A stretch of 64,000 nt of DNA from Thereva unica (Eukaryota > Arthropoda > Insecta > Diptera > Therevidae), in the NCBI GenBank assembly GCA_949987705.1, contig OX465282.1, positions 82,386,070-82,450,069 on the forward strand, written 5' to 3'. How positions within the stretch are numbered: the first letter of the stretch is position 1; each line of letters begins with the position of its first letter. Position numbers and translations under genes: made by a program. The notes beneath the pieces were generated by a model that saw only the letters and a program-made list of their open reading frames with translations, made no database searches and had not been told where the DNA came from. Positions 13,065-64,000 of this stretch are shown here, piece after piece.

Positions 13065-14503
13065 TGTCGCGGCAGCTCCTAAAAACTACAAAATTACCTG
13101 AAACAAAAACAAAATTTAGGATGGGGATAATAAATAAAAACCAAAATTCACCCACTAAAAAAACGATTTATTGAAATTCGTGATAACACATAATCACAAT
13201 AAGATGTCTTAAAAAGAAAACAACCAGCCGCTGTCAATTGCCGTCGGTAAACAAATCTGAAAACTAGAAAAATAATTACTAAAGAATTTAAACAAGTTCC
13301 ACAAAGCAAAACTTACCTGTCAACACTTAATTCATGTCCGGCCCCTTTTTTCTCCCTTCCAAAATAAATATCACGCTGAAATATAAAAATAAAATTAGTA
13401 TATAATTTAAAATGAGATAAAAACACTTACCTGCAATCAAACTCCATCTGACAGACAGAAACAGCTGATCGCAAAACAAGCGAAGATTAAATACATAATC
13501 GGTATATACTGCACATTGCCCCGCCACTTGCCGAAGCTTCATTGTGATTGCAGCAATAAATATCGCAGCAGTTGACCGAAAATTTCAGATCACTTGATCC
13601 TTCAAGACGTTCTGAGTCTGAAAGAATTGCCGCATTGAGGCAACCAGTGATTCTCATTTAAGCAGGGCGTACTGAGCCAAATCTACAAGCAAGTTGAACG
13701 GAGTATTGAACCTTCAACTTTTGCATCCTAACCAAGTTGAAAGGAAGTATTGAACCTTCAACTTTCGCATCCCAATAAGGGCGAATTGAGCCGATTCTTA
13801 ACCAATCTAAACGGCGCACTGAGCCGTCATACGTAAGCTGTTGTAGTGAGACAGCATCCTAAGCAAGGCGAATTGAGCCAAGAAATATTCAATTCCCATA
13901 TAACTTAATAAGCTAAACCAATCTAAATTTCAGAACCCAAAGGGCAGATCTAAAGCAAACAGGGCGTCAAGAAGCATCCACACCACTGTAATCGACCGCA
14001 ACCAACGCATCGCTAGTGCATCATCAATTCAGCAAGTTAAATCAGTCAAAGAAGGTGAAGTTTGGGAAATTAATTCAGTTTCTGATCAGCGACATCTATA
14101 CGTCCAAAATTCGAACTAACTCTTAAAGCCAAGAAAGTTAAAGCATCAAGACAATCTATTAAGGAGAATTTAACTAAGCAAAAGACACACGCCGCATACA
14201 TTACCAGCAGGAAATTTTAGTGATAGTGTTAATATAAATGAAAGGCCTAGCAATAATTCTGGCAATATCAAACTATTGAATTTAAGCTAGTTTATGTCTA
14301 TATTGTATAACTATTGAAATAACTTAAAACTAATTTATATTGAATTAATCAAATAATGAACTTTATATGAATTGTGTGAATTAATGAATGAAATAGTGAA
14401 TTGTGAAGTTAATTGTACTAGAAAACATTAAGCTTTTAATAAAATTGTGTTTATTCAAAAAAGGGTGATTTTCTTGGGGTGACACTTGGGTGATCACGGC
14501 ACA
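13065..14503 (+). repeat. BEL1 5' LTR
   Basis: A 1439-bp LTR, TGTCGCGGC...CACGGCACA. An AATAAA signal at about 14439 gives a likely end of the R region. The part from 13601 to 13882 is an array of hairpins described separately. ORFs inside (for example 13327-13542 minus) are repeated in the 3' LTR and have no coding signature. Confidence 0.9.
13601..13882 (+). ncRNA. Hairpin array with GNNYTGA-type loops (5' LTR copy)
   Basis: Nine short stem-loops follow one another. Simple cases have a 7-base loop with the form GNNYTGA between variable but complementary stems: TTGCC/GGCAA (13627-13643), GGC/GCC (13666-13678, 13680-13692 region and 13867-13879), ACGGC/GCCGT (13811-13827), and TTCA.GAC/GTCTGAA (13601-13622). 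Longer ones are AAGTTGAA/TTCAACTT at 13691-13720 and 13734-13764, with loops that include ATTGA. GCTGT/ACAGC at 13837-13855 has loop TGTAGTGAG. Several are followed by GCATCC. Stems change in both arms together while the loop TGA stays fixed, which is evidence of RNA structure. Role unknown; packaging, translation or stability control are possible. Confidence 0.6.
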
Positions 14504-14506
14504 TTT

Positions 14507-14524
14507 TGGTCCTTCGAGCCGGAT
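14507..14524 (+). promoter_or_regulatory. BEL1 primer-binding site (tRNA-Tyr)
   Basis: TGGTCCTTCGAGCCGGAT begins three bases after the 5' LTR. It complements the 3' end of an animal tRNA-Tyr (...CCGGCTCGAAGGACCA), the primer for minus-strand synthesis. BEL3 uses the same primer. Confidence 0.8.
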
Positions 14525-14615
14525 TCCGAAAGGAAAACGTACATCTAGCCTGATCACGTCACCTCAAAGGGAAATCGTAGCAGCCAGTGACCTAAACTAA
14601 CTAAACTAAAACAAT

Positions 14616-19901: not shown

Positions 19902-20006
19902 GCAATCATGTCATTTATTAAAAAAAAAAAAAACCTAAATTACAAAAGTTTGGAAATATACTTAGTATCTAATGTTGACACCGCAGCGTGTCAAGGCCGA
20001 GGAGTA

Positions 20007-21445: not shown

Positions 21446-21450
21446 TTGTT

Positions 21451-41403: not shown

Positions 41404-43497
41404 AGAGGCCTAGAGGGGGTTGAGATAGAAGCACAGGTCAGGTCAGAGAAACTTCTGAAAGGGTTTCTTACAGGGAAAAGATCTAGAGGTAAACTTTCCT
41501 TTACAATTAAAGAGAATTTCTTGGCGTGCGAAAGGTTTAAATAAGTGGGGAGAAATGAGCCCTATAATAGAACCAAACTTTAGATTCGATTGAGAAATTT
41601 CGAAACCCTCCGACAATGGGGAATATGAGCCAACATAAAAGAATCAAATTAAAAATTAAGGGAAAACAAAACATATAATTTTTCCACTATCCTTCCAATT
41701 CAGCAAACCCAACTACGATAGACATACACCTTGTGTTTCATATCAAACCGTCAAGAATTAGGCAGTTATAAAATCGAAATAGAACAAAACAAATAATGAA
41801 ATGAACATTAAATTTCCATCTACTATATATAATTTTTCGGTATAGATTCAAATTCCGAGAAACTCAAATAAAATCAACGAAAACAAAACAAAATCATAAA
41901 TTTTTAGACCTGCTAAAACCTAATTAAGGTCCTTATTAATTCACAGTTAAATTCAAATCCCTTGACATTAGTTCCTAAATCAAACGAAAGAGAAAAACAA
42001 AAAAAAACAAAAACCTTTATTCGCCACACTTTCAATATTCTGATCAAATATTATAGGTTACCACAACGAAACTACGATGTAGTAGCATCAATGAATCGTA
42101 TAAGATTATGTAAATTCCACAATATTGTTTTGTTTTCATAGTTCCTAATTCAATATTTGCTACACCTTATTAAGGGTTTTGTTATTACATTTCTTATTAA
42201 TTAAGTAAATAACAAACAAGAAAAACTTTATTTTCAATAAATCCACGATTAGTTTTTTCTTGAAAATTCATAAATTTTATCGTTACTAAACATGATTAAA
42301 ATTCTTTGTTCTTTAAGACCGCTTCACTTTCCAGAGATAAAACCACTAGATCTTTGATAAATACCGTAAATAACGCATTTACGGTCAAGTAAGCCTTTGT
42401 CCTACAGAATATCCGTTATCGACATGTGGTGACAAAATCATCAATTAAAATGCATAAATTTTATTTTAAAGAAAGTAAACGGGGTTTATCATAATAACGG
42501 TTTCTACGGAGTTCACATGAAAATTTTCGACTAATTTTATTTAAGTAATTACGGTAATAATTAAATTTTTTATTAATTAAGTAAATAACAAACAAAAAAA
42601 AATTTTTATTTTCAATAAATCCACGATTAGGTTTTTCAAAATTCATCAATTTTCACATTGTTCCTAAATATAATTAAATTCTTTGTTCTTTAAGACCGCT
42701 TCAATTTCCAGAGATAAAACCACTATATCTTTGATAAATACCGTAAATAACGCATCTACGGTCAAGTAAACCTTTGTCCTACAGAATATCCGTTATCAAC
42801 ATGTGGTGATAAAATCATCAATTAAAATGCATAAATTTTATTTTAAAGAAAGTAAACGGGGTTTATCATAATAACGGTTTCTAAGGAGTTCACATGAAAA
42901 TTTTCGACTAATTTTATTTAAGATAATTACGGTAATCTTTTCCACCAGTTCTCTTTGTTCATTGTGTCTGAAAGGCAACCAAATATGAAGGAGAACAAAA
43001 ACTGTAGCTGTAAAATAAATTGAACTGTACTTGTGTCGGCGACTTAGCACATTCTTCGCAAGAGAGACAAAACACCATGCCCCATGAGGTGAAAACTGAC
43101 CCGTTATCCCTTTAAAATTTTAAAATTCAACTTATTAAATCAATAATACGCGATGCGAATTCCTTTACCATCGATCAAAAAAAAATGCACATCACCTTTA
43201 TTCGTTTAATTTGAGTGACACAAAATTAAATTCCTCCAAGGTACCACTACTTTTAATTCTTTAATAGAACACTAATTGGATAAAAATGAAACCTTCACTC
43301 ACCTGCCTTTGCAAAGGGAACGGATGGGATTTTGTAATGGGATTTAAAAAAAACTGCGGCTGATCTCGGCGACTTCTGGATCTGGGGTTACTGTAATTCC
43401 AATACCGCTACAGGTGAATTCCTTTATGTTTCCCACGACGTTATGGTAGAGTATTCCCACGTGGCAGTGATTTGTATTAAAATCCGTGAGATCACTG
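41404..43497 (-). repeat. BEL3 long AT-rich leader with 376-bp tandem duplication
   Basis: About 2.1 kb between primer site and gag start contains no gene. Two adjacent copies of a ~376-bp AT-rich block begin at 42195 and 42571, each ending with the same GTAAACGGGGTTTATCATAA and GAAAATTTTCGAC landmarks. Small ORFs at 42461 and 42838 (minus) are the two copies of one non-coding stretch. Confidence 0.65.
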
Positions 43498-43520: not shown

Positions 43521-44289
43521 TGTTTGGGCGGATGCCGTGGGGAAACCAAAAAAAAATATATATACTCGCGCTTTTGAATACAATTATTATAACAACAACT
43601 TTATTTCACTGAATTTTACATTGAGTTTAAGTTCTGTAAACTTGGAGACGTCTTCTCTATCCGGCTTTCTGCAGCTGACTCTCGGTCTTCCTTCCAAAGT
43701 CTAGTAATAACAAGTCTTTCATCTTCATACAAAATTTTCACCCGGTTGGTTGTGTACGTGCATATATGAACATCACTGCTGAGCAAAACTCAACGCATAC
43801 TTCGTGAACTCGGCGAGACAAAGCCAGACTCTCTCTCTTCGATCAAGTATGCAGAACAGAAAAGGAAAGAAAATTGACATATCGAACATTCCCATAAAAA
43901 AAATCAAAACAAACGAGCAAATATGCACCAATACATCAACATTATCCCTATAGAAACTCATAAAATGTTCTGTTGTTTAGTTGTATGCTAGCGCTTATAA
44001 AAATATTGCATTCTCTCTCTGATAGCCTGACATCGTCATATGAAGAACTTATGCATATAGCTGTTCGTCTTTCCCTCATTAACCATATGAAGATGAAAGA
44101 CTTGTTAATTTCTAGACTTTGCTTCCTTCTTGCTATCGATGGATTTTTTCTGGTATGTTCTGGTATCCCGTTTTCTACTGTTCGGGGAGGGAGAACAATG
44201 GATGTGCTCGTAGATTGGTAGTGTTGACATTATTATGGATATTTCCTCTCCATCGGCTAGTGTTGTGAGGAAGTTTGTTTTCTTGAACA
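43521..44289 (-). repeat. BEL3 5' LTR, split by a MITE
   Basis: This matches 35256-35588 except for the 435 bases made up of the MITE plus its duplicated CTTCCTTC. Remaining length is 334 bp, with only one or two base differences seen. Confidence 0.88.
43695..44121. mobile_element. hAT-like MITE inside BEL3 LTR
   Basis: A 427-bp non-coding element with ~36-bp terminal inverted repeats (CAAAGTCTAG...; shared AACAAGTCTTTCATCTTCAT) and the 8-bp duplication CTTCCTTC (43687-43694, 44122-44129). The empty site is preserved in the other LTR, which proves the boundaries. 8-bp duplications and a CA start suggest the hAT superfamily. The ORF at 43773-43961 has no coding signature. Confidence 0.8.
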
Positions 44290-47946: not shown

Positions 47947-48863
47947 GAATTTAGGCTAGTGCAAATACGATTTAAATGCTTCAAAACAAAAAAAAATTAA
48001 TAGCAGGCAAGGCTCAGCAGTTAAATGTGGTCAAGGCTATAACTAAGAGAAAAAAAAACTTTTAAACACGAAAAAAGGGGAAATCTTAAAATGGGGATGC
48101 TATTTAGGGGTTGAAAACGGGTTTTTGTGATTTGCGGTGAAACATGACCTCCTAGTGGAAAACGCTTCATGCAAAAGTTGTAGATAATAAAAAAATCTAT
48201 AACTTTTGTATATAACATATTTTGACATAACCTCAAATTCTATAAGAAAATGGCGGAAAACCGATTTCTCAGTTTTTAATTTTTTTCTCACGTAAAATTA
48301 ATTCAATTTAAATGAAAATTTGTAAGAATATACCTTGTATTGTGCTAAATAAGCATGATTTTTTCTTGGTTTGAAAAATGAATGGTTTCCTAGATATTGA
48401 CATTTTTCGAAAAAAATACCCTAATTTTGCAAGAACAACTTTATTGGTGTTTTTTCGGATTTCGATGTTCAAATAAGTGCTCAATTAACCGTTGAAATGT
48501 CTACTTTCAAATGGTCTATATATGTTAATACTTTATTCTTCATTAATCTGCTTAAAATTCAGAAAAACCGAAAAAGGACTTTTCGGATCACGAATTTTGC
48601 AATTTTACAACTTTTTTAAAATTTTGAATTCTTTCCGTTAATGACGGTTAAATTTTAATGACAGAACTTATTTTCATATAATATTACTTAAATTAAATAA
48701 AGTTAATTACAGAAAGTGGCACACACCATCCGCAACATTTTAAATAAATAAAAAATAAAAAAAAAAATATGTAGGTACGTATAAATTTTGTTTCACTTGA
48801 ATTACCCGTCCAAACCCAATTACCCGCCTTGGGTGGGCGATTTCAAGACTGGCAGACACCACT
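47947..48863 (+). repeat. Left arm of a large imperfect palindrome
   Basis: About 0.9 kb that recurs in reverse complement at 50428-51652. Landmarks include AAAACGCTTCATGCAAAAGT, CCGATTTCTCAGTTTTTAAT and, at the inner end, GATTTCAAGACTGGCAGACA. It most likely is a long terminal inverted repeat of a DNA transposon. The ORFs at 48021-48291 are matched by mirror ORFs in the other arm and are non-coding. Confidence 0.75.
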
Positions 48864-49086
48864 CGATCAGACGAGCTTATTGATGAAGAACCAGCAAAGA
48901 GTCTTGATATCGAAAATGAAGACATCGATAATTTTGAAGAGTCTACCCAATTTGAAATTTCGATCGATGAAAAAGAAAATCCGCAATGTAAAAAATCTAA
49001 CTTTAATTAAAATAATTAATTGTTCAATTTGTTAGTTTTATAAATGTGAAAAAACTATATGTGTTACTCATATGTACTTAACAATT
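48864..49086 (+). other. Palindrome centre, left part; acidic ORF tail
   Basis: From the arm into the centre, one plus-strand frame reads an acidic tail (SDELIDEEPAKSLDIENED and on) and stops at TAA ~49010. It looks like the C-terminal end of a lost protein, possibly the transposase of the long-TIR element. The family cannot be told. Confidence 0.3.
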
Positions 49087-50189
49087 CTAATCCATCCATC
49101 CATCCAATGGCGCTACAGCCCAAATCGAGCCTTGGCCTCCTCTAGGGCATTTCTGCAAGTTTGACGGTCCCTTGCAGCATGTCTCCAGTTCCGGATGTTG
49201 AGCATTGACTCTGCGTCAGCCGTCACAGAGTCTATCCATCTCCTCCTGGGTCTACCTACTGGCCTACTTCCCGAAATTTCTGATGCCATAAGCCGTTTTG
49301 GGATGCGATTGTGCTCCATCCTGATCACGTGGCCGGCTAGTCTCAATCTGTTGATTTTTATGAAAGTTGAGAGTTGTGGGTCGTCAAAAATTTCATACAA
49401 CTCGTTGTTGTATCTTCTTCGCCATATTCCATCCTCTCTGATTGGGCCTATTATGCATCTGAGAATTTTCCTCTCGAACCTGTTGACTAGTTCCTCTATG
49501 TCCTGGGTCATAGTCCAAGTCTCGCTACCATAACACAGTACTGGTCGTATTACTGTTTTGAAAAGTGAGAGTTTCGTTTTCCTGTGCACAAATCTTGAGT
49601 GCAGGATTTGTTTTTGGGCATAAAAGGCTCTATTAGCCAGTAGTATTCGTCTGATTATTTCTTCTCTTTCTTCGTTTCTTTTTGTGATAGTAGACCCAAG
49701 GTAGACTGTTTTATCGACTACTTCTAGGTTATGTTCGTCGATGGTTATATTTCTTCCCATTCTAAATCGTCCTGCTCTGGATTGTTGCATCACCTTCGTT
49801 TTTTCTTCGTTAATCTTCAGGCCTATGTCCTTTGCCGCCTCTTTTAATTCAACATAGACTTCTTTTGCTGCCAAAAAGGACCTTCCCACGATGTTTACGT
49901 CATCCGCATATCCAAGTAATTGTACCGACTGGGTAGCTATTGATGCACTTCGCTGGACTGACGTTTTCCTTATCACCCATTCTAGGGCCAGGTTGAAAAG
50001 CATGGGGGCCAGCCCATCTCCTTGTCTAACCCTTGACGTACTTCGAACTCATCTGTTACAACATTTTGGATCCTTACTTTCGCCAGTGAGCTGTTTGTGG
50101 CGCATTTGATTAGTTGTACCAACTTTGAGGGGACTCATATTTCCGATAAGATCTCGTATAGCCTCTCTCTGTTTATTGAGTCATATGCC
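49087..50189 (-). mobile_element. RTE-type LINE, 5'-truncated
   Basis: A 1.1-kb insertion flanked by the 8-bp duplication TAACAATT (49079-49086, 50190-50197). At its 3' end (plus-strand left) is an (ATGG)n-like tail, read ATCCATCCATCC on the plus strand, typical of RTE LINEs. It contains the 3' half of a reverse transcriptase and sits in the centre of the palindrome, so it inserted after the palindrome's host element. Confidence 0.85.
49113..50003 (-). pseudogene. LINE reverse transcriptase, C-terminal part
   Basis: 296 codons open. The catalytic YADD box is at residues 32-35 (LLGYADDVNIVG), followed by thumb-like sequence, VIRPVLCYGSETWTM, and the RTE C-terminal region (RLRLAGHVIRM, GRPRRRWIDSVTAD, final EEAKARFGL). 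Just upstream, the conserved VRQGL / RQGD segment is split over two frames near 50030, a frameshift. The endonuclease and N-terminal reverse transcriptase are missing by 5' truncation, so the copy is dead. Confidence 0.87.
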
Positions 50190-50197
50190 TAACAATT

Positions 50198-50427
50198 ATA
50201 ATGATCGTGCAAAAATTTGTAATAAAAGTAAAATCATAAGAGTTACCGACAGTGTTGAATGCTAGGAAAAAATACTACCATAGATTTTCACCTTGTTATT
50301 TTACGACGAGAGCAGATTCTAGTCGATAAACATTTTTTTTATTTAGATTTCAAACTTAATCACCACGTGCTCTTCTACAAGCCAGCATCACAAATCTTGG
50401 CCCGTACTAGTAGAGTGCGTTTAAGTG
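50198..50427. other. Palindrome centre, right part
   Basis: About 230 bp of unique AT-rich sequence between the LINE and the right arm, with no gene seen. Together with 48864-49086 it is what remains of the interior of the long-TIR element. Confidence 0.4.
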
Positions 50428-51652
50428 GTGTCTGCCAGTCTTGAAATCGCCCACCCAAGGCGGGTAATTGGGTTTGGACGGGTAATTCAAGTGAAACAAA
50501 ATTTATACGTACCTACATATTTTTTTTTTATTTTTTATTTATTTAAAATGTTGCGGATGGTGTGTGCCACTTTCTGTAATTAACTTTATTTAATTTAAGT
50601 AATATTATATGAAAATAAGTTCTGTCATTAAAATTTAACCGTCATTAACGGAAAGAATTCAAAATTTTAAAAAAGTTGTAAAATTGAAAAATTCGTGATC
50701 CGAAAAGTCCTTTTTCGGTTTTTCTGAATTTTAAGCAGATTAATGAAGAATAAAGTATTAACATATATAGACCATTTGAAAGTAGACATTTCAACGGTTA
50801 ATTGAGCACTTATTTGAACATCGAAATCCGAAAAAATACCAATAAAGTTGTTCTTGCAAAATTAGGGTATTTTTTTCGAAAAATGTCAATATCTAGGAAA
50901 CCATTCATTTTTCAAACCAAGAAAAAATCATGCTTATTTAACACAATACAAGGTATCGATGGGTCTTACGAAAAAGATATTGTTTCAAAATCTTGCTGAA
51001 AAAGATATTGTTTCAATTTATTGCTGAAAAACATATTGTTTCGGTTTCTCGCTGAAAAAGATATTGTTTCGGTTTCTCGGTGAAGAACATATTGTTTCGT
51101 TTTCTGGCTGCAAAACATATGAGCAAAAAAACGAAACAATATGTTCTTCACCGAGAAACCGAAACAATATCTTTTTCAGCGAGAAACCGAAACAATATGT
51201 TTTTCAGCAATAAATTGAAACAATATCTTTTTCAGCAAGATTTTGAAACAATATCTTTTTCGTAAGACCCATCGGTATATTCTTACAAATGTTCATTTAA
51301 ATTGAATTAATTTTACGTGAGAAAAAAATTAAAAACTGAAAAATCGGTTTTCCGCCATTTTCTTATAGAATTTGAGGTTATGTCAAAATATGTTATATAC
51401 AAAAGTTATAGATTTTTTTATTATCTACAACTTTTGCATGAAGCGTTTTCCACTAGGAGGTCATGTTTCACCGCAAATCACAAAAAACCGTTTTCAACCC
51501 CTAAATAGCATCCCCATTTTAAGATTTCCCCTTTTTTCGTGTTTAAAAGTTTTTTTTTCTCTTAGTTATAGCTTTGACCACATTTAACTGCTGAGCCTTG
51601 CCTGCTATTAATTTTTTTTTCCAAAAACCTATTTGCACTAGCCTATTTGTTG
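50428..51652 (-). repeat. Right arm of the large palindrome
   Basis: Reverse complement of 47947-48863, with small indels and one 322-bp insertion (the foldback element plus its GTAT duplication). Similarity fades at TATTTGCACTAGCCT (~51650), which also marks the left arm's outer end. Confidence 0.75.
50957..51274. mobile_element. Foldback MITE built of 28-bp units
   Basis: A 318-bp, nearly perfect inverted repeat with little spacer. Each half has a CGATGGGTCTTACG end followed by five tandem 28-bp units of the form GAAAAAGATATTGTTTC plus 11 variable bases. It is flanked by GTAT on both sides (50953-50956, 51275-51278), and the left palindrome arm shows the empty site. Transcribed RNA would form a ~150-bp hairpin. 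Mirror ORFs (50966-51151 minus, 51080-51265 plus) are side-effects. Confidence 0.8.
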
Positions 51653-52105: not shown

Positions 52106-53631
52106 AGTGCTCGTGTACGCTGGGAAGAGCTGCATAATGCGTTTGCATTACGAATCAGGACAGGTGTCATCATCAATATAAAGCACGTCGAAGTGAAGCA
52201 ATTTTTAAAGGATGGTTATGCTTTGTTTGAGCGGCGTGTTAAGAACATCTTAAAGAAGCATAATTTCATCAAGACATCAACGACTTTAAGCTGCGAGTAT
52301 GTTAAGCATGGTGTTAATGATGGTGATGTGATAAGTGATATAAAATACTTTCACACCAAAACTACACCCATTGGGAGCACCGATGATCTGGAACAGTGGT
52401 TTTTGAAAAACGTGCAGGATGATCTATTGACCCAGGTTGAGGAGTTCCAAGAGAAAGATAGCGGCTGGGCCTTACATACCATAGTGAACTTAAGGGTGCA
52501 CATAAACAAATACGAGCCATTAAGAGGATCGTCATTTATAAAATTGCAGCAAAGTATCGCAGCAAAGCAGGCATGCGTAAATGTGAGAAATGATGATAAT
52601 GCATGTTTTGCGTGGGCAGTGGTCTCTGCTTTGTATTCAGTAGAGTATAGGGATCACGCATATAGAACATCAAAGTACCCGCACTACAACAATGTGCTAA
52701 ACTTGAGCGGGATTACTTTTCCAGTTACACTAAACCAAATAAAAACATTTGAAGAAAACAACAGATTATCAATTAATGTTTTCATACTGGAAAAGGAAAA
52801 GATGAGCGAATACACGACTGTTCCAGCTTACTTAACGAAGAATAAATTGGATATCAATCTGCTAATGATAAAGTCAAATTATGACTGCAGTAAGGACGAT
52901 GATGATGATAGTGCTATTGTTTATCATTTCCGCTGGATTAAAAACTTATCGCGTTTGGTGAGCAGGCAGACGTCTAAAGTGGAACACAAAAAATATATCT
53001 GTGATAGATGTTTATTTTATTTTTATACTGAAGAAAAGCTCGCAGCGCACGTGCCTGAGTGTGAAAAGGTGAATGACTGTAAAGTTGCTTTTCATAAGGA
53101 GAAATTTATCACTTTTAAAAATTATAATTACAAGAATCCGGTACCATTTACAGTATATGCAGATTTGGAGTCAATATTGATACCTGTTACCGATGGTGGT
53201 AGTAATGGTGATAAGACAAAGAAAATTCAAGAACATGAAGTTCATAGTATTGGATTATATTTTCACTGCTATTACGATGAATCTCTATCATTTTACCGAT
53301 CGAATCGTGGAAAAACGTGTCTTCAGTGGTTTACATTGCAGCTGCAGGAAATAGCAAATATAGCTGAAGAGAAATTAAAAGATATAAAACCACTAGCACC
53401 CTTATCAGCGCAGGAAAAGTGCATACAATATAACCAACCATGCTGCCATATATGCGAGAAACCCTTTGCGCTTGGTGAAACCAGAGTGAGGGATCATTGC
53501 CACCTCACAGGCAAATATCGTGGGCCAGCACACAACAGCTGCAACATCAATTATAATGATTGTCGCAACATCCCAGTCATTTTCCACAATTTATCAGGAT
53601 ATGATGCGCATTTCATAATCAAGGATATAGC
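52106..53631 (+). pseudogene. Protein-primed-type DNA polymerase B, N-terminal half, cut by BEL4
   Basis: The frame opens after 52105 (the nominal start at 52193 is a [19 protein letters not shown] upstream is in frame and family-like) and runs into the BEL4 LTR at 53632. Domain order: an N-terminal module with a [15 protein letters not shown] segment; a CDRC...H...C zinc site (~52995-53070); the 3'-5' exonuclease first motif VYADLESIL (Asp at 53162); an endonuclease-VII-like Cys/His insert (CHIC...[16 protein letters not shown], ~53440-53545); and exonuclease motif [14 protein letters not shown] (~53585-53615). This is the layout of PolB from arthropod polinton/adintovirus-like elements. Polymerase motifs would lie beyond BEL4, outside the window. 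Confidence 0.75.
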
Positions 53632-55089
53632 TGTTCGGCCCCGAACACAACAACCTGAAAGGGGACAGGATTCAAACAAAAAAAAAACACAACACATATA
53701 AAATATAAATATAATTTGTCCTAAGAAGTTATAAACTTAATCTAATTATCCTAATTCTAAGACTTAAAAATATAAATTAAAAATAAACTTAAAAAACGAA
53801 TTTGAAATAAACTTAAAAACTACATCTAACTTATAAGGCATGCTGAAATAGAGAAATATATATGTAAACAATACAATGAATTTTCATAAATAAAAAAAAA
53901 AAATCTGAAAAAAAGAAAATAACCAACTACGAATTAAAAATTATTCTCTGAAACATAAGGAAAAAATAAATAATAACCCTGAAATATAAAATGATAAAAA
54001 AGCTGAAATTACAAATGAACCTGAAATAAATGCTTATAGAGTAATTAATCAACGATACTTACCAAGCCCCTATAGCATACTGGAGGCTACTTCATTTCGG
54101 AGCACCGGCAAGTTGAAACCTGTCTTTTTACCTAAAACCCTAAAAATGAATGAAATTATTAATAAAATATTAAAAACAAACTATAAGATTATACTTACCT
54201 GCGATATTTAGCTGAAACAAGACAAGCAGAATTAATAAATTTGAAATTAATTGAAGGTCAAAAAACAACAACAACAACCACACGCAGAACGTAAACAAAC
54301 CGAATTCAAACAATTAACACATAAAAAGCACATCCAAGTTAAGGAAACTTGCGCAATATGTGCTACATATCATTTCACCTGTACAATATGTGTCTATTTC
54401 ACACATTACAGGTGAAAAATAGCATTTTTAGGTGGAAAATGACGGATATAACCTATCATTTTTATCCACCTATTTTCACACAAGAAAACACAATTTCCGA
54501 CACCTACAACACACACAACTTTTCACAGGTGAACAATAAACACACCACATCACGTTACTTACCTGAAAGGTCAGGAAAAACAGGTGAAAAACACTAAAAT
54601 ATCACTCGCGACATACACAAAACTTCGCCCGGCAAAGAAACGTCAAATTTTATGTTTCATATGAAAATGACATATGAAACTTATGTAGAATTTCGCGCGG
54701 ATTCTAATGGTGACATTAAAAACATCGAAAAGGATACGCGTAAAAAGATATTTTAATAATAATATTTCTCCATAAGGTTAAGGAGAAAGAAAGAGAAAAT
54801 AAACTTATGAAATTAAAGCGAGACAAGAATAGTTGTGTACAAAATGGAGAAAGGAAATTATTTATGGCCATTTTAGGGAATAAAAATATCCCTGCAATAA
54901 AAATCGACAAAAAAGAGAAAAACAGTCGAAAAAATATAAAGAAAAATTAGAATAATTATTTTAAATACAGTACAAATAATTACTATTACAATTGGCCTCT
55001 AAATTCGGTGAAAGTTAATAATTTTACGCTGCCGATAAGGCAGTTCGCAACAAGGAAATAAAATTTCCTTAAGGACACCGTTATCTTTG

Positions 55090-55099
55090 GACTATAAAA
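55090..55099 (+). promoter_or_regulatory. BEL4 LTR TATA box
   Basis: ACTATAAAAA lies ~25-45 bp upstream of CTTAGTCGG and TTTTCAGCT, which are initiator-like. This places the transcription start just before the first hairpin, so the array would be in the transcribed leader. Confidence 0.5.
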
Positions 55100-55142
55100 A
55101 CGCGGACGCATCCTTAGTCGGCCTCTCTCAATTTTCAGCTAC

Positions 55143-55708
55143 GCAGGGAACTCTCCAAACCAATAGGAAGGTGAGAGTTTTACATGCAATATTAATTTCT
55201 GAAAATTTTTGATAGCAAGCAGGAAATTTTCTCGCACACCACTAAGTGGAAGGCGGAAAATTTCACATGCTCTTGTTGTTGTATTGTGTTTAATTTGGTA
55301 GCGGGCAGCAAATTTTCGCGCACACCACAACGTGGAAGGCGGAAAATTTTACCTGCATGTTTTTGTTGTAAATTTGATTTATAAAGAGCAGTGAACGCAT
55401 AGGCACACCACTTTGTGGAAGGCTAAGGTTCTGCCTGCACTTTATTCACTTTGTTTTTGTCTCACGTAGAATAGATAAAAAGCAGTAAATTCATGCGCAT
55501 ACCATTTTATGGAAGGCCAGAATTTATCTGCTATTAAATTTGTGTTCGCGTATCAGTCGTAGAAATTAGCAGTGAGTTTCTGCACACCGCTTACTGGCGG
55601 AAGGTGGCAAATTCTGCATGCTTGTTTGTGTTTAGAAAATATTAGAATTCAAACAATCGCAGTGGATTCCTGTGCATACCATTAATGGAAGGCCGGAATT
55701 CTGCCTGC
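55143..55708 (+). ncRNA. Array of seven covarying hairpins in BEL4 leader
   Basis: Seven ~45-52-nt stem-loops begin at 55143, 55219, 55305, 55388, 55482, 55569 and 55659. Each starts GCAG and ends TGC (CTGC or ATGC). Outer stems differ but pair: ACTCTC/GAGAGT, AAATTTTC/GAAAATTT (twice), GAAC/GTTC, AAATTC/GAATTT, GAGTTT/AAATTC, GGATTC/GAATTC (G-U allowed). Apical stems differ but pair: CCAC/GTGG (three times), CCAT/ATGG (twice), CCGC/GCGG. The sequence ACC before and GGAAGG after the apical stem is nearly invariant. Compensatory change with a constant motif is strong evidence of a conserved RNA structure. Function unknown; Gag binding/packaging, translation or protection are candidates. Confidence 0.75.
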
Positions 55709-55982
55709 ATTTGAAACATATTAAACACGTAGTAAGAGAAACATCCAGGGCATCAAAGGAAATATTCAGCGGACCACCACGACGCAGGACTGGCATTTTC
55801 ACGACGACCAGCGACACCAGGGCACTGCAGCAAGCAATTTAACCATACATTAGCATAAGTTGCATGATTAGGTTGTAAGTTTGCAAATATTGAGGTGTAC
55901 TTATTGAATAAAATTGAATTACCAACTGCACGTGCGTTTTTTTTTCACTATTTTATATTTTTACGTTTCCGTTTGAAACATT

Positions 55983-56001
55983 TGGAGGTTCCACCGAGAT
56001 T
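55983..56001 (+). promoter_or_regulatory. BEL4 primer-binding site (tRNA-Gln)
   Basis: TGGAGGTTCCACCGAGATT begins two bases after the LTR. It complements an animal tRNA-Gln 3' end (ATCTCGGTGGAACCTCCA). Confidence 0.75.
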
Positions 56002-56064
56002 TCGTGCAGCGTATTCAAACTTATTTAATTTTTATACTTTTTGCAAACTTACATACATTAAATC

Positions 56065-59000
56065 ATGGCGACTCTGCAACAATTGTGCCGAAAACAATCT
56101 ATGCTACGAAATCGATTGGAGAAATTCGTCGAAAACGGAAAAAAAACCGCGATAGCAAAACGTTCATATGGATATTATCAATCCAGAATCAACGACTACA
56201 AGGCATTATGGGAAGAATTCTGTAATAATGACTTAGCCATAAATGAAGCAGCACTCGATAATCCTGTAGAAGTCCCGGTGGAGTATTTGCGTCTCGATCG
56301 ATATAGTGAAATGGAAATCAAATACGCCGAACATATGGGTGAATTGTTGGATGGATTACAAAGAAATGCACCAAACACTTCTTCAGAGCCAGGCACCACT
56401 CCAGCTATTAGAACACCAGAGCTGCAACAAATTGGGACGCAGCACGACATTCAGCTCCCTAGAATTAGCCTGCCAAAATACAATGGCAACTACGATATGT
56501 GGCGCTCCTTTCATGACGTGTTCGTGTCGCTGGTACATAGTAACCCCAAGCTAACAGCTGTGCAAAAACTGCACTACTTAAAGGAATGTCTAGTTGGGGA
56601 GGCAGAATCTTTATTAAGGCATGTACCAACCACCAACGATGATTACTATCCAGCCTGGACAAAGCTCAAGGAACGTTACGAGAACAAACGAATCTTAGTT
56701 AATCATCAGCTAAAGACATTTTTGAGTATTGCTAAGCTATCGACGGAAACATCCAAAGGTCTGAAGTCATTAATCGATACAACAACCGAATGCCTGCAGC
56801 AATTGAAGGCTCTTGGTGTGGACACGAGCTCGTGGGATGCAATTCTGATTTACTTACTAGTTCAACGATTGCCATTCACAACATTGAGGCTTTGGGAAGA
56901 AGAACAAGGATCAACCCAAGCGTTACCCACTTGTGCCCAATTCAAGGCGTTCTTGACCACCAGGTTGCGTGTTTTAGAATCCATTGCAGATGTCGTAGTA
57001 TCTAAGCCTGCATCTAAACCCAACCCACACATCAAAAGGGAAACTTTTCATACACATCACACAATAAACCAAAATGGTTGTCCAGCTTGTAACAGCAAAC
57101 ACTTTATTGCCTTCTGCAGGAAATTCAAATCAATGAATGCGGACGCTAGGCGTAAAATTATACAAACCGCGGGCTGTTGTTTAAACTGCTTTTCACGTCA
57201 GCACACAATCAACAATTGTCCGAGTAAATATAGATGTCGCAAGTGCAACCAAAAACACCATACAACATTACATCCTAAGTCAAGGAGAGAGAGCACTGGG
57301 TCAACAGCATCCAAAGGGAATCTTCATGAAGGAGGTAACATACCAAACAAATCTCCTACAGCCCCGAAGATACACTCAGCTAATGAAGCTGAACATCCAA
57401 TACAAACTTTCTTAGCCACGAAAAATCGCCGTGCGTTACTGGCGACCGCACGTGTGATGGTATATAGCAAACAAGGCACAGGAAAGCTACTACGTTGTCT
57501 CATCGATCCAGGATCTGAGGCATCCTTTATCACGGACGATGCATGCAGACAACTACGAGCTACCCCAACTAACACAGAGGTAGAAATTACGGGCTTGAAT
57601 TTAGCCCCTGCAGGCACATCAAACCAAAAGGTGAGCCTGTCGTTAAGATCATGTTACCAGACTGAGCGGGCCGTAAAAGAGGAGTTTCTAATCATAGACA
57701 GGATCACTAATCCTTTACCAACCACGACAACCCGAAAAGGAAACTGGCAGCATCTCAAGAACTTGCAGTTAGCAGATCCAGCATTCTGGAAAACTGGAAG
57801 CATCGACGCCCTGCTGGGAGTAAGGGCCTATGTGAAGATTTTAGAAAACGGCATTCGTCGCGGAGATGATACATCTCCAACTGCCATCAAAACAATGTTT
57901 GGATGGATACTAATGGGACCAATCACAGCTACGGTCGGCGATCAAGTCGCAGCATTTACGACCAGCACAGCAGATCTCAAGATAGATAACCTGCTGAAAC
58001 GTTTTTGGGAAATTGAGGAAACTCCGTCAAGGAAAATTCTCACGCCAGAGGACGAAACATGTCAACAAATCTTTCACAAAACACACATCCGGAAGGCAAA
58101 TGGAAGCTATCAAGTGGCGCTGCCCTTTGTGGAAAACAAGGCTCCTATCTTGGGACAGTCAAGGCCACAAGCGATGAACCGGTTTCTGGCATTGCAGAGA
58201 CAATTCACTAAGAAGCCTCAACTGAAGGATGAATATACCAAGTGTCTGGATGAGTACATAGACCTTGGACATATGGAAGCAGTAGATACCCCGACCAATG
58301 ACGAGGAACATTACTACATACCTCATCACGCTGTCTTCAAAGACAGTTCCACAACAAAATTAAGAGTGGTTTTTGACGCCTCCGCCAAAACAACGAGTGG
58401 AAAATCCCTCAATGATCACCTTTTGGTAGGACCAACGTTGCAGCCCAAACTATTCGCGACCCTATTAAATTGGAGAAAATATAAGGTGGCCATGAACGCG
58501 GATATAGAGAAAATGTACCGCATGATCAGTATTCATCCAGACCACCAGAACTTCCAGCGAATCATTTGGCAGCATCCCCAGACTCGACTACCACAGGATT
58601 ACAAATTAAAAACAGTAACCTTTGGAACAGCATGCGCACCATATTTAGCTATACGCACGTTACAGCAACTTGCGGAAGATGAAAGGGAAACATGGCCCTT
58701 AGCATACACAGCCATATACAACAATTTTTATGTTGACGATTTACTAAGCGGTGCGGACAACGTTGAGGAAGCCAAATTACTGCAACAAGAATTACGTAGC
58801 ATCACCAAAGCAGGGGGCTTTAAGCTACGAAAATGGACAAGTAATTACCCTGCATTACTAGAAGACATTCCACAAGAAGATCGGGAATTAAAGTCCACCC
58901 TAACCCTGGTTTCAGATGATGTCGTTAAGACTCTTGGCGTTCGTTGGCATCCAGGACCAGATTATTTTTCCTTTGTTGTTAATCCACTGCCGGAGTACGC

Positions 59001-61302
59001 CGTTGCAACCAAGAGAAATATCTTGTCACAAGTCGCTTCATTATACGATCCATTGGGATGGCTCGCACCTATTCTGATTACTGCAAAAATAATAATGCAG
59101 TCATTATGGATAACTGGTCATGCTTGGGATCAACCAGTATCAAGCTCAATAGAGAATCAATGGAGTACATTTAAAACGGATCTACAGCATTTAAAAACTC
59201 TGCGTATTCCAAGATGGGTCGGATACTCCAAAACGGCAAATATGCAGCTACATGGGTTCTGCGATGCGTCATCCAGAGCATATGCAGCCGTCTTGTATTT
59301 AAGAGTGGAGACGGATAATGGAGAAATTACATCACACTTACTCACTTCCAAGACCAGAGTGGCGCCCACAAAGCCCACAACGATTCCTCGATTGGAGCTA
59401 AATGCAGCTGTACTCTTGGCTAGATTACTGCAGACCACCCTAGACGATATGCAACTACTACACATGCCCATATATGCCTGGACCGATTCTATGATAACTC
59501 TGCAATGGGTGAAAGAACATCCGGCTAAATGGAAGACTTATGTTGCTAACCGCGTCGTCGAAATACAGGAAACGATACGATATGATCAATGGCGGCACGT
59601 ACCCACTAAAGACAATCCAGCGGATATAGCTTCAAGAGGCATCACAGTTTCTAATTTGGTCAACCACCAGCTGTGGTGGAACGGACCAAGTTGGTTGATT
59701 TGCAATTCCGATCAATGGCCAAAAACTCAGAACATACCAAGCAATACGGAATGCGAAGTGAAACGTTCAGCCACAGTTAATTTCCTAGCTCAATTGGAAG
59801 ACAATATTCTGCTACGATATTCAACCATCACACGGCTCACACATATTATTGCCCTCCTCTTACGATTTAGACATAACTGCAAAAATATACATGCAAAACG
59901 GGTTAGTTACATATCCACAACTGAATACCAGGAAGCACAGACCACTATCTTGCGGCTTGTACAAAAAATCGAATTTGCCGATGATTACGCGAAGCTCCTC
60001 CATAAACAACCACTAGCGCGCACCAGTCGTCTGCTTAAGCTGACTCCATTTATGGATAAGGATGGTCTAATACGATTAGGAGGCAGATTATCAAACGCAG
60101 CATTAACACATGACGCCAAGCACCCAATCATCCTTCCGCAGGAGCACCAAGTGACACATATGATCATCGATCAACTACACTTAGCAACTCTTCATGGAGG
60201 AACGTCACTCGTTCTAGCTACCAGTCGCCAAAAATATTGGATTCTGGATGCTAGACGATGCGTTACGAGTAGAATACATAAATGTGTCACTTGTGCCAGA
60301 CATCGAGGTCAGACTATGACACAGTTGATGGGGGACTTACCAGCACCCAGAGTCAATATCACCAACCCATTCACTAAAATAGGAATAGACTACGCTGGCC
60401 CAATAATAATCAAGACTTCGCCGTTACGCAATGCTAAACTACAAAAAGCTTACATCTGTGTTATCATCTGCCTAGCGACCAGAGCCATTCACATCGAGTT
60501 GGTGTCAGATCTCTCTACGATGGCCTTCATTGCAGCATTAAAACGCTTTATTGGCAGAAGAGGATTACCATCAGACATATACTCCGACTGTGGCTCCAAT
60601 TTTATAGGAGCGAAAACCATATTGGATAAAGAAGTACGACAAGCCATAAAAGACGCTAATCCAAACGCTGTACAATACTTGGCAATGAAACAGATCACTT
60701 GGCACTTCAACCCACCAGCGGCTCCCCACTTTGGAGGAATCTGGGAAGCGGGGGTGAAATCAATAAAACATCACTTGCGTAGAACGCTAGGAAACTCAAT
60801 TTATACCTTTGAGGAATACGCAACCGTCCTCAATCAAGTTGAAGCTTGCTTAAACTCACGACCCTTATGTAGTGTAAGAAATGATCCAGACGAATCCTTT
60901 GTTCTTACCCCGGGGCATTTTTTGATTGGGCGAGCACTCAATGCAATACCAGAGCCAAATATAGAAAATAACATGTCATTATCACGGCGATGGAAATTGA
61001 TACAAGATATAGTTAAAAAATTCTGGAATACATGGTCCAAAGATTACCTCAATCAGTTGCAACAACGGCCAAAATGGCAAAGAGAGCAACCGAATCTCCA
61101 AATAGGCGACATTGTGCTTATAAAACAAGAAACCACAGCACCAACAAATTGGCCACTCGCCATCGTGGAAAAAACATTTCCAGGACCTGACGGCTTGACA
61201 CGGGTGGTACAAGTCAGAACCGGCCGCAGCAGCTTTCAAAGACCGATAACGAAGATTTGCCGCTTGCCAACAGAGCAACATACAAGCACAAGGGATAACT
61301 AA
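56065..61302 (+). CDS. BEL4 Gag-Pol polyprotein, intact (1745 aa)
   Basis: One uninterrupted frame from ATG 56065. It has a BEL Gag domain (~130-300; LPRISLPKYNGNYDMWRSFHD), zinc motifs (CPACNSKHFIAFC, CLNCFSRQHTINNC, CRKCNQKHH) and protease CLIDPGSEASFI (Asp ~481). Reverse transcriptase has MNADIEKMYRMI (Asp ~813) and YVDD at ~889. RNase H has HGFCDASSRAYAAV (Asp ~1067). The integrase has an H2C2 finger (HGGTSL...CVTC) and triad Asp ~1442 (GIDYAGPI), Asp ~1508 (SDCGSNF) and Glu ~1561 (GIWEAGV). The C-terminus ends RPITKICRLP, like BEL1 and BEL3. Spacing of the last two catalytic residues equals that of BEL1. All catalytic residues are present. A second ORF follows 38 bp later. Confidence 0.95.
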   Translation: MATLQQLCRKQSMLRNRLEKFVENGKKTAIAKRSYGYYQSRINDYKALWEEFCNNDLAINEAALDNPVEVPVEYLRLDRYSEMEIKYAEHMGELLDGLQRNAPNTSSEPGTTPAIRTPELQQIGTQHDIQLPRISLPKYNGNYDMWRSFHDVFVSLVHSNPKLTAVQKLHYLKECLVGEAESLLRHVPTTNDDYYPAWTKLKERYENKRILVNHQLKTFLSIAKLSTETSKGLKSLIDTTTECLQQLKALGVDTSSWDAILIYLLVQRLPFTTLRLWEEEQGSTQALPTCAQFKAFLTTRLRVLESIADVVVSKPASKPNPHIKRETFHTHHTINQNGCPACNSKHFIAFCRKFKSMNADARRKIIQTAGCCLNCFSRQHTINNCPSKYRCRKCNQKHHTTLHPKSRRESTGSTASKGNLHEGGNIPNKSPTAPKIHSANEAEHPIQTFLATKNRRALLATARVMVYSKQGTGKLLRCLIDPGSEASFITDDACRQLRATPTNTEVEITGLNLAPAGTSNQKVSLSLRSCYQTERAVKEEFLIIDRITNPLPTTTTRKGNWQHLKNLQLADPAFWKTGSIDALLGVRAYVKILENGIRRGDDTSPTAIKTMFGWILMGPITATVGDQVAAFTTSTADLKIDNLLKRFWEIEETPSRKILTPEDETCQQIFHKTHIRKANGSYQVALPFVENKAPILGQSRPQAMNRFLALQRQFTKKPQLKDEYTKCLDEYIDLGHMEAVDTPTNDEEHYYIPHHAVFKDSSTTKLRVVFDASAKTTSGKSLNDHLLVGPTLQPKLFATLLNWRKYKVAMNADIEKMYRMISIHPDHQNFQRIIWQHPQTRLPQDYKLKTVTFGTACAPYLAIRTLQQLAEDERETWPLAYTAIYNNFYVDDLLSGADNVEEAKLLQQELRSITKAGGFKLRKWTSNYPALLEDIPQEDRELKSTLTLVSDDVVKTLGVRWHPGPDYFSFVVNPLPEYAVATKRNILSQVASLYDPLGWLAPILITAKIIMQSLWITGHAWDQPVSSSIENQWSTFKTDLQHLKTLRIPRWVGYSKTANMQLHGFCDASSRAYAAVLYLRVETDNGEITSHLLTSKTRVAPTKPTTIPRLELNAAVLLARLLQTTLDDMQLLHMPIYAWTDSMITLQWVKEHPAKWKTYVANRVVEIQETIRYDQWRHVPTKDNPADIASRGITVSNLVNHQLWWNGPSWLICNSDQWPKTQNIPSNTECEVKRSATVNFLAQLEDNILLRYSTITRLTHIIALLLRFRHNCKNIHAKRVSYISTTEYQEAQTTILRLVQKIEFADDYAKLLHKQPLARTSRLLKLTPFMDKDGLIRLGGRLSNAALTHDAKHPIILPQEHQVTHMIIDQLHLATLHGGTSLVLATSRQKYWILDARRCVTSRIHKCVTCARHRGQTMTQLMGDLPAPRVNITNPFTKIGIDYAGPIIIKTSPLRNAKLQKAYICVIICLATRAIHIELVSDLSTMAFIAALKRFIGRRGLPSDIYSDCGSNFIGAKTILDKEVRQAIKDANPNAVQYLAMKQITWHFNPPAAPHFGGIWEAGVKSIKHHLRRTLGNSIYTFEEYATVLNQVEACLNSRPLCSVRNDPDESFVLTPGHFLIGRALNAIPEPNIENNMSLSRRWKLIQDIVKKFWNTWSKDYLNQLQQRPKWQREQPNLQIGDIVLIKQETTAPTNWPLAIVEKTFPGPDGLTRVVQVRTGRSSFQRPITKICRLPTEQHTSTRDN

Positions 61303-61340
61303 CTCCATAGTTGGCAACGTTCGTGATCGTCTTGTTAAAT

Positions 61341-61919
61341 ATGAGTGAATACGACTATACTGAAGAAGATTTAGCGGCAGTGGAAGATAGCTTCCTGTCT
61401 GCCGGCAGCCCTTATTTGGACCTCGACTGTGACTTCACTATCGATTTGTCAACCCCATCACCACCAGCATCTGCCTCGGAAACACCAACATCTTGTCCAG
61501 GTCCTAGTACCGAGGAGCCTCCGAAAAAACAAACACAACCCCCTATCTTAGAGAAACCAGCCATCATCAATGGGAGGTTCTACTACAATTTGGAGAGGCT
61601 CACACCAACAACTAACCTGACCGAGCTAGCCCAACGTGCGAACAACTGTTTCCAGCGCTTTGTCACCCGTGAAGGCGAAGATTTATACCTACCTCGGAGT
61701 ATAATCCAACGGATTAAGTTCAATCGAGTCCGAGAGACAAGGAAAAAGGAAATCACCGTCAGTTTACCCAACACCTATCAGGCACGGCTCCAGGTCAAGG
61801 CAGATGGACGTATAGTGTTTCATCACCACCACAAAAGAGGCTTGAAAAAGCTGAAAGAAAGGTTGAACTTGAGAGTTCAACGCGGGGGAGAATGTTCGGC
61901 CCCGAACACAACAACCTGA
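61341..61919 (+). CDS. BEL4 accessory ORF2, 192 aa, no known domain
   Basis: An intact ORF between pol and the 3' LTR. ATG 61341 is preferred over the upstream 61311 because the protein then begins with a clean acidic segment (SEYDYTEEDLAAVEDSF). The layout is an acidic N-terminus (~1-35), a Pro/Ser/Thr-rich linker (~36-75), and a basic, structured C-terminal region (~80-180) with FYYNLERLT, LPRSIIQRIKFNRVRETRKK and HHHHKRGLKKLKERLNLRV. The stop lies 27 bases inside the LTR. It sits where env would be, but it has no signal peptide or membrane segment, so it is not an envelope protein. An acidic/basic two-part nucleic-acid-binding or regulatory role is possible (inference). Confidence 0.65.
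   Translation: MSEYDYTEEDLAAVEDSFLSAGSPYLDLDCDFTIDLSTPSPPASASETPTSCPGPSTEEPPKKQTQPPILEKPAIINGRFYYNLERLTPTTNLTELAQRANNCFQRFVTREGEDLYLPRSIIQRIKFNRVRETRKKEITVSLPNTYQARLQVKADGRIVFHHHHKRGLKKLKERLNLRVQRGGECSAPNTTT
61881..61892 (+). promoter_or_regulatory. BEL4 polypurine tract
   Basis: CGCGGGGGAGAA directly precedes the 3' LTR TG, the usual plus-strand primer position. It also encodes part of ORF2. Confidence 0.65.
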
Positions 61920-64000
61920 AAGGGGACAGGATTCAAACAAAAAAAAAACACAACACATATAAAATATAAATATAATTTGTCCTAAGAAGTTATAAACTTA
62001 ATCTAATTATCCTAATTCTAAGACTTAAAAATATAAATTAAAAATAAACTTAAAAAACGAATTTGAAATAAACTTAAAAACTACATCTAACTTATAAGGC
62101 ATGCTGAAATAGAGAAATATATATGTAAACAATACAATGAATTTTCATAAATAAAAAAAAAAATCTGAAAAAAAGAAAATAACCAACTACGAATTAAAAA
62201 TTATTCTCTGAAACATAAGGAAAAAATAAATAATAACCCTGAAATATAAAATGATAAAAAAGCTGAAATTACAAATGAACCTGAAATAAATGCTTATAGA
62301 GTAATTAATCAACGATACTTACCAAGCCCCTATAGCATACTGGAGGCTACTTCATTTCGGAGCACCGGCAAGTTGAAACTTGTCTTTTTACCTAAAACCC
62401 TAAAAATGAATGAAATTATTAATAAAATATTAAAAACAAACTATAAGATTATACTTACCTGCGATATTTAGCTGAAACAAGACAAGCAGAATTAATAAAT
62501 TTGAAATTAATTGAAGGTCAAAAAACAACAACAACAACCACACGCAGAACGTAAACAAACCGAATTCAAACAATTAACACATAAAAAGCACATCCAAGTT
62601 AAGGAAACTTGCGCAATATGTGCTACATATCATTTCACCTGTACAATATGTGTCTATTTCACACATTACAGGTGAAAAATAGCATTTTTAGGTGGAAAAT
62701 GACGGATATAACCTATCATTTTTATCCACCTATTTTCACACAAGAAAACACAATTTCCGACACCTACAACACACACAACTTTTCACAGGTGAACAATAAA
62801 CACACCACATCACGTTACTTACCTGAAAGGTCAGGAAAAACAGGTGAAAAACACTAAAATATCACTCGCGACATACACAAAACTTCGCCCGGCAAAGAAA
62901 CGTCAAATTTTATGTTTCATATGAAAATGACATATGAAACTTATGTAGAATTTCGCGCGGATTCTAATGGTGACATTAAAAACATCGAAAAGGATACGCG
63001 TAAAAAGATATTTTAATAATAATATTTCTCCATAAGGTTAAGGAGAAAGAAAGAGAAAATAAACTTATGAAATTAAAGCGAGACAAGAATAGTTGTGTAC
63101 AAAATGGAGAAAGGAAATTATTTATGGCCATTTTAGGGAATAAAAATATCCCTGCAATAAAAATCGACAAAAAAGAGAAAAACAGTCGAAAAAATATAAA
63201 GAAAAATTAGAATAATTATTTTAAATACAGTACAAATAATTACTATTACAATTGGCCTCTAAATTCGGTGAAAGTTAATAATTTTACGCTGCCGATAAGG
63301 CAGTTCGCAACAAGGAAATAAAATTTCCTTAAGGACACCGTTATCTTTGGACTATAAAAACGCGGACGCATCCTTAGTCGGCCTCTCTCAATTTTCAGCT
63401 ACGCAGGGAACTCTCCAAACCAATAGGAAGGTGAGAGTTTTACATGCAATATTAATTTCTGAAAATTTTTGATAGCAAGCAGGAAATTTTCTCGCACACC
63501 ACTAAGTGGAAGGCGGAAAATTTCACATGCTCTTGTTGTTGTATTGTGTTTAATTTGGTAGCGGGCAGCAAATTTTCGCGCACACCACAACGTGGAAGGC
63601 GGAAAATTTTACCTGCATGTTTTTGTTGTAAATTTGATTTATAAAGAGCAGTGAACGCATAGGCACACCACTTTGTGGAAGGCTAAGGTTCTGCCTGCAC
63701 TTTATTCACTTTGTTTTTGTCTCACGTAGAATAGATAAAAAGCAGTAAATTCATGCGCATACCATTTTATGGAAGGCCAGAATTTATCTGCTATTAAATT
63801 TGTGTTCGCGTATCAGTCGTAGAAATTAGCAGTGAGTTTCTGCACACCGCTTACTGGCGGAAGGTGGCAAATTCTGCATGCTTGTTTGTGTTTAGAAAAT
63901 ATTAGAATTCAAACAATCGCAGTGGATTCCTGTGCATACCATTAATGGAAGGCCGGAATTCTGCCTGCATTTGAAACATATTAAACACGTAGTAAGAGAA
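61893..64000 (+). repeat. BEL4 3' LTR (cut by window end)
   Basis: Matches the 5' LTR from its first base at an offset of 8261, dropping to 8260 after a one-base difference in an A-run. The last ~240 bp are outside the window. It repeats the hairpin array from 63403 to ~63968. Confidence 0.9.
63403..63968 (+). ncRNA. BEL4 hairpin array, 3' LTR copy
   Basis: The same seven stem-loops as at 55143-55708, at offset 8260, with no sequence change noticed. Confidence 0.7.

Follow-up and report, generated by a model that had tools for sequence, protein, structure and literature searches.

Seven tandem hairpins with a conserved internal loop in the presumed R region of a BEL/Pao retrotransposon from Thereva unica

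Gag is the usual RNA reader in retroelements. Like the retroviral packaging signal psi, the array described here groups several hairpins upstream of gag and downstream of the presumed start of transcription, and the Gag of its element carries CCHC-like motifs; unlike psi, it is built of seven units that are homologous and have one internal-loop motif in common, lies in the presumed R region and hence at both RNA ends, and its binding by Gag is putative. Within the BEL/Pao superfamily, Pao of Bombyx mori is likewise reported to have tandem repetition in R, tandem copies of a putative R region being named in the title of a 1993 paper by Xiong, Burke and Eickbush. If the Pao repeats form hairpins, tandem R structure would be older knowledge, and the novelty of the present array would shrink to its structure, its loop and its covariation. 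Hairpin structures in R are also found in retroviruses, the Rex response element of HTLV-1 being one of them. Likewise, the TAR and poly(A) hairpins of HIV-1 place structured RNA at both ends, according to the available part of the report (PMC2645353); unlike these retroviral R hairpins, the structure described here is a tandem array of repeated units and has no known transactivator. How LTR retrotransposons select their own RNA is poorly known, and the packaging sequences of Ty1 and Ty3 are not precisely defined in the accessible text of two reports (PMC4974528, PMC11381356). In the same text, the genomic RNAs of both elements are likewise structured at the 5' end, with a Gag binding site inside the Ty1 structure, but this structure is a pseudoknot in Ty1 and a palindrome within a short hairpin in Ty3, neither being an array of repeated hairpins (PMC4974528, PMC11381356). 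LTR motifs of Sireviruses likewise occur in many palindromic copies; in the available portion of the source, they lie upstream of the TATA box, have a CGG-CCG core and are discussed as possible transcriptional regulators (PMC2829016). By contrast, the array at 55143-55708 lies downstream of a TATAAA at 55093, and its units have no CGG-CCG core. Among the leading literature matches on BEL/Pao, packaging, leader and R-region structure, no title or abstract start describes such arrays in BEL/Pao, and a search of 54900-56100 against Rfam returned no family, its three matches (E 0.99 to 6.7) all falling far below the gathering score. Two sub-threshold Rfam matches overlap the edges of hairpin units 3, 4 and 5, and neither follows a unit hairpin. 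In viral contigs, the loop motif of the units was found in 118 stretches, of which the 80 listed have one match each and no array, which we read as chance. As far as these matches go, the array appears to be a so-far undescribed form of cis-acting leader hairpins in retroelements.

The array was found in a window of 64,000 nucleotides (the whole stretch of T. unica DNA analysed here), in which it is carried by a complete and young BEL/Pao element on the plus strand. The 5' LTR (53632..55980, 2349 bp) forms a direct repeat with 61893-64000, with 99.9% identity over 2109 columns, and the final 240 bases of the 3' LTR lie immediately beyond the window end and match the 5' LTR at 100%. TG...CA ends, the near-identical LTRs and a 5-bp target duplication, ATAGC, on both sides of the element mark it as an LTR retrotransposon of BEL/Pao type. 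Its membership in BEL/Pao was likewise indicated by gag (DUF1759), reverse transcriptase (RVT_1), Peptidase_A17 and integrase (Integrase_H2C2) domains, together with DUF5641, within a single plus-strand frame of 1745 aa (56065..61302), four pieces of which were searched separately against Pfam. Two CCHC-like motifs were recognized in Gag, at aa 339 and aa 372; for the Gag piece, the Pfam search reported no zinc-knuckle family, and its closest named proteins are from insects (moths, a leafhopper and flies). Viral contigs yielded no relatives of the reverse transcriptase, either with a single piece of this domain or with an alignment of four such pieces. Two further plus-strand frames adjoin the element: one of 202 aa between pol and the 3' LTR (61311-61919), its end overlapping the LTR start, which has no Pfam match, and one of 502 aa (52193-53701), which overlaps the start of the 5' LTR at its end and weakly matches Recombination endonuclease VII (E 5.3e-6). 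A primer binding site follows the 5' LTR at 55983..56002 on the plus strand, which we take to be the complement of the 3' end of tRNA-Gln; none of 18 sites (55983-56000) varied among the genomic copies covering it (mean cover 13.2).

The initial annotation had placed the hairpins between a TATA box and a poly(A) signal, and thus in R at both ends of the transcript of an apparently active element. A TATAAA (55093..55098, plus strand), the presumed core promoter, and an AATAAA (55907..55912, plus strand), the presumed poly(A) signal, do flank the array. Judged from spacing, transcription would start at about 55120-55135, and R would end soon after the AATAAA, so that an R of approximately 800 nt containing all seven units is suggested by these two signals; a second TATAAA at 55380 lies within the array, given which a transcription start inside the array is possible. 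As for activity, the element does look recently active, because its LTRs are 99.9% identical, the ATAGC duplication is present, the coding sequence is one long frame, and 27 LTR copies at 98-100% identity exist in the genome.

All seven units were found where the initial annotation had located them in the 5' LTR, at 55143-55708, with lengths of 45-53 nt and start spacings of 76, 86, 83, 94, 87 and 90. On the plus strand they occupy 55143..55187 (unit 1), 55219..55270 (unit 2), 55305..55356 (unit 3), 55388..55438 (unit 4), 55482..55531 (unit 5), 55569..55621 (unit 6) and 55659..55708 (unit 7); units 2, 3, 4, 5 and 7 were recognized by sequence, folding and a covariance model, and the same seven recur in the 3' LTR at 63403..63968 on the same strand. 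The shared letters, namely the GCAG...(C/A)TGC ends, ACC and GGAAGG, are each present in 7/7 units. In the common plan, a GCAG/YTGC clamp, in which three units have G-A as the fourth pair, is followed by a small asymmetric loop and then by a long stem of about 6-8 pairs, usually with a one-base bulge; further in come a C-G pair, which mostly sits on a G-C pair, a 3x3 internal loop, an apical stem of the form CCRY/RYGG and a short end loop. The 3x3 loop, 5'-AYA opposite 5'-AAG between C-G pairs, is the most conserved part of the units: five of its six unpaired positions are invariant in 7/7 window units, whereas the long stem varies in most of its columns. This loop goes beyond what the initial annotation had described, as does the different array in a second BEL element discussed below. 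Exceptions to the plan are the divergent unit 1, with an AAA/AAG loop and a shorter apical stem, and unit 6, in which the end loop is longer and the bulge lies on the opposite side. Units 2 and 3 are a clear tandem duplication (63 bases at 86%). Likeness between units reached a mean z of 7.8 over 21 pairs, as compared to a mean z of 0.76 over 15 pairs of spacers, and a strict form of the unit motif is confined, within the 64-kb window, to the two LTR arrays.

The initial annotation had taken paired stem changes as a sign of selection on RNA structure, and this was supported by covariation among the units, by the low variation of units as compared to spacers in the 27 young copies and by A-U/G-U exchanges in diverged copies. 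When a covariance model built from units 2, 3, 4, 5 and 7 was searched against the window, it recovered units 6 and 1, from which it had not been built, at E 5.4e-6 and E 2.6e-4, respectively, as well as the seven units of the 3' LTR; the best match outside the arrays had an E value of 0.23. In an alignment made to fit the structure, and hence biased towards pairing, 92.2% of 116 cells were paired as compared to 87.1% in column shuffles (reached by 0/500), six pairs were changed on both sides (reached by 2/500) and the covariation score was equalled by 0/500 shuffles. Further pair types, 11 in number, were below the shuffle mean of 12.7, with 483/500 shuffles reaching 11. Sliding the partners by one column lowered the share of paired cells from 92.2% to 50-53%. 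An additional test, in which the 3' arms were swapped among units, uses unaligned arms and is thus independent of the structure-fitted alignment: 12 of the 5040 permutations equalled the true arrangement for the outer arms, and likewise 12/5040 for the apical stem.

Since seven related units are few, genomic copies were sought. A search of the genome from which the window comes, in which 40 of 96 candidates were scored, gave 27 LTR copies with 98-100% identity and 13 with 89-90%. The young group includes the window's own two LTRs and resolves by spacing into 13 LTR pairs and one single LTR, or about 14 insertions. Among these 27 copies, 2/353 sites varied in the units as compared to 21/213 in the array spacers (23/225 by another alignment), and elsewhere 53/1449 sites varied in the U3 region of the LTR and 71/1136 in gag (about 13 copies). 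The part of R after the array was likewise little varied, at 3/222 sites. Only two of 6750 paired cells were changed in the young copies, both breaking the drawn pair.

Divergence from the window is about 10% in the 13 diverged copies, not all of which are independent, two of them, L147 and L148, having the same downstream flank. These two lie on different contigs and were probably copied within a larger duplication. In the diverged group, variable sites amounted to 1/36 in the loop of units 2 to 7, 4/42 in the clamp and 5/42 in the loop flanks; other unit sites varied at 31/227, not far below the array spacers at 41/225. The loop of unit 1 is an exception to this conservation, with two of its six sites changed in 13/13 copies. 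Differences common to most diverged copies affected 16/353 unit sites versus 30/308 other sites (Fisher p 0.009), and in three diverged loci with longer flanks 19/353 sites varied in the units, 25/213 in the spacers and 27/222 in R after the array. The covariance model found the seven units in 13/13 diverged copies, unit 1 of L157 only at E 0.077. Nine sites at which 12 or 13 of the 13 copies differ from the window fall at paired positions: five are A-U/G-U exchanges on the transcript strand (55147, 55509, 55526, 55576 and 55665), and the other four disrupt the pair as drawn (55255, 55353, 55402 and 55427). The change at 55353 turns the clamp pair G-C into G-A, as found in other units. At 55255, seven of the 13 copies have both sides of the unit 2 pair 55233/55255 changed, from C-G to A-U; in the other six, 55255 could instead pair with the adjacent A at 55232, which would move the bulge. 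Counted by cells, one-sided changes kept the pair 75 times and broke it 57 times, and two-sided changes kept it seven times. Thus, the copies show mainly conservation and wobble exchange. As regards the covariation over many aligned copies that the initial annotation had asked for, the 40 copies show conservation, the five exchanges and the one both-side change (7/13), with too little variation among their units to test it fully.

Folding gave a less uniform picture of the units. Folded alone, units 1 to 7 had z values against shuffles of -2.84, -5.50, -3.49, -0.31, -4.17, -1.45 and -1.35, units 4, 6 and 7 being not much better than shuffles. Within the whole R, their mean pair probabilities were 0.87, 0.97, 0.81, 0.17, 0.97, 0.30 and 0.03 with a span limit of 120, and 0.81, 0.58, 0.26, 0.36, 0.92, 0.28 and 0.74 with no span limit; in either setting three of the seven were low in context, namely units 4, 6 and 7 with the limit and units 3, 4 and 6 without it. 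The folding z of the whole R was -1.61 and that of its complement -2.06 (20 shuffles each). In the window, the plus strand had the lower fold energy for 6/7 units, twice by 0.2 kcal/mol, the minus strand being more stable for unit 3; in the diverged copies, it was lower for 5/7, with the minus strand more stable for units 3 and 4. The strand preference predicted from energy alone is therefore weak, and the evidence for the transcript strand comes from the paired cells, with six G-U versus one A-C on the plus strand, and from the A-U/G-U exchanges in the diverged copies. A sliding-window energy scan counted the arrays among the richest regions of the window (7 and 6 strong peaks per 620 bases) and does not single them out, because several other regions rank no lower.

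The window holds three further BEL elements, as judged by Pfam domains; on eight further frames of the window, Pfam gave one DUF5641 and one RVT_1. One of these elements, at 13062-21447 with LTRs of 1444 bp, carries an array of a different design on the plus strand (13609..13876): seven hairpins, each with a 7-nt loop GNNNTGA (GNNNUGA in the RNA) on differing stems, the loops starting at 13609, 13632, 13669, 13783, 13816, 13843 and 13870. A copy of this array lies in the 3' LTR at 20551-20818 (plus strand). The array at 13609..13876 is downstream of a TATATA at 13503 and upstream of an AATAAA at 14438; another AATAAA, at 13555, precedes it. The motif was found by reading the sequence, and both motif and stretch were picked after the fact, for which reason the count of seven GNNNTGA hairpins in 13541-13900, as compared to 0.045 expected and 0/2000 shuffles reaching seven, is to be read with that selection in mind; elsewhere, 11 isolated GNNNTGA hairpins occur on the two strands of the window. 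A motif-free scan for hairpins with a common end loop, which is blind to internal-loop arrays such as the AYA/AAG array, ranked the LTR arrays of the second element first of 848 stretches (six members, the best unrelated stretch having four). In this array, 73.8% of cells were paired as compared to 55.3% in shuffles (0/500), the covariation score was reached by 0/500 shuffles and the both-side changes by 59/500, and one G-U was counted versus four A-C over the drawn columns, unpaired flanks included. Two more hairpins with a GNNNTGA core in a larger loop (13692-13719 and 13734-13763) bring the total to nine; several hairpins of the array have just three pairs and a low probability in context. 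As far as the sequences allow a judgement, the AYA/AAG and GNNNTGA motifs appear to have no visible common feature. In the other two BEL elements, which have shorter LTRs, and in the gypsy-like LTRs of the window, neither the covariance model nor the end-loop scan detected an array.

Several observations concern the surroundings of these elements. A stretch of 705 nt in the presumed leader of the second BEL element (13533-14237, plus strand) has no ATG, where single-base shuffles average 11.4 and 0/2000 have none; it was picked after the fact, its start being placed by inference and its end set by the first ATG at 14238. Six upstream ATGs follow between 14238 and gag at 14616. The ATG-free stretch suggests that this leader may be scanned. 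The second element apparently inserted into a gypsy-like element at 4949-22911 (LTRs 4949-6418 and 21446-22911, 98.8%), ending at the edge of a gypsy LTR. A BEL element on the minus strand has, in one of its LTRs, a stretch at 43695-44121 (minus strand) that is missing from the other; judged by eye, this stretch ends in inverted repeats and is probably a small inserted transposon. The untranslated leader of the minus-strand element contains a sequence of about 375 bp twice in tandem (42184-42936, 93%). Furthermore, 48000-51608 forms a large foldback with arms at 48330-48766/50520-50956 (99%) and 48000-48334/51274-51608 (99%) and nested arms at 50954-51277, and a reverse transcriptase fragment (49116-50003) lies within it.

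For the function of the AYA/AAG array, we tentatively propose, at somewhat less than an even chance, that multivalent binding of Gag marks the genomic RNA for packaging. In this view, the R region would contain RNA hairpins that selection maintains on the transcript strand, and each of these units would present the same recognition surface, the 3x3 loop on exchangeable paired stems. The nucleocapsid of the element's own Gag, with its two CCHC-like motifs, would bind the array multivalently, and this binding would single out the element's genomic RNA for packaging and assembly; both RNA ends would carry the tag, because R stands at both ends. An invariant unpaired motif on exchangeable stems in many repeats would, by analogy, resemble binding sites at which a protein recognises a loop within a helix.

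Such a protein might also come from the host, and the array might be bound by a host RNA-binding protein on which the export, localisation or stability of the unspliced RNA depends, a reading that we regard as rather unlikely. Hairpins serve as signals for Egl, with BicD, in flies, and the Mason-Pfizer structure acts through NXF1. A message that is presumably unspliced and carries repeated hairpins whose internal loop is conserved would suit a reader of this kind, and the accessible parts of two reports offer precedents in a genomic RNA structure binding NXF1/NXT1 (PMC10309623) and in the Egl-mediated transport of HeT-A (PMC6114517). However, one host reader would favour one motif, and an element-encoded reader is favoured over a single host factor because two BEL elements in one genome carry unrelated motifs in a like place; moreover, the array has no match to a known Rfam element.

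Control of translation or of premature polyadenylation, by slowed scanning of the long leader or by masking of the 5' AATAAA, appears improbable. The leader contains eight ATGs upstream of gag, and five of the units hold six of these between them; the total is below that of shuffles (17.8; 18/2000 as low), so that the leader may be scanned, as this explanation would have it. A roadblock to translation would not need an internal loop of fixed sequence, however, and the array ends about 200 nt before the AATAAA that it would have to mask.

It is very improbable that the units act at the DNA level as palindromic transcription-factor sites, as proposed for the Sirevirus LTR repeats. They are indeed inverted repeats in an LTR close to a promoter, but their stems differ through paired changes, their conserved letters include an unpaired, non-palindromic loop, the A-U/G-U exchange falls on the transcript strand and the array is downstream of the first TATAAA. 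Least credible is a mutational by-product, in which a tandemly duplicated quasi-palindrome had its arms kept alike by template switching, as reverse transcriptase performs it, with no selected function: the duplication of units 2 and 3 fits it, but template correction would also repair the mismatches of the loop, one of the most conserved parts, and would not cut the variation of units about 17-fold relative to spacers in the young copies. Two other candidates were dropped, microRNA precursors since the units are too short, and self-cleaving ribozymes since no Rfam match was found and seven of them in R would destroy the genome.

Returning to the packaging by Gag proposed above, a wider reading would extend it to BEL/Pao as a group, in which element-specific hairpin arrays in R, each with its own recognition loop and diverging along with Gag, would serve as a packaging barcode for an element's own RNA among rivals in one cell; this we consider doubtful. 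Such a barcode would be closer to the dispersed packaging hairpins of RNA phages than to the single psi of retroviruses. The two differently designed arrays in one genome are RNA ligands that can be tested, and they provide a natural specificity test of each Gag versus its own array. If each Gag prefers its own array, such arrays could help to recognise and classify long LTRs.
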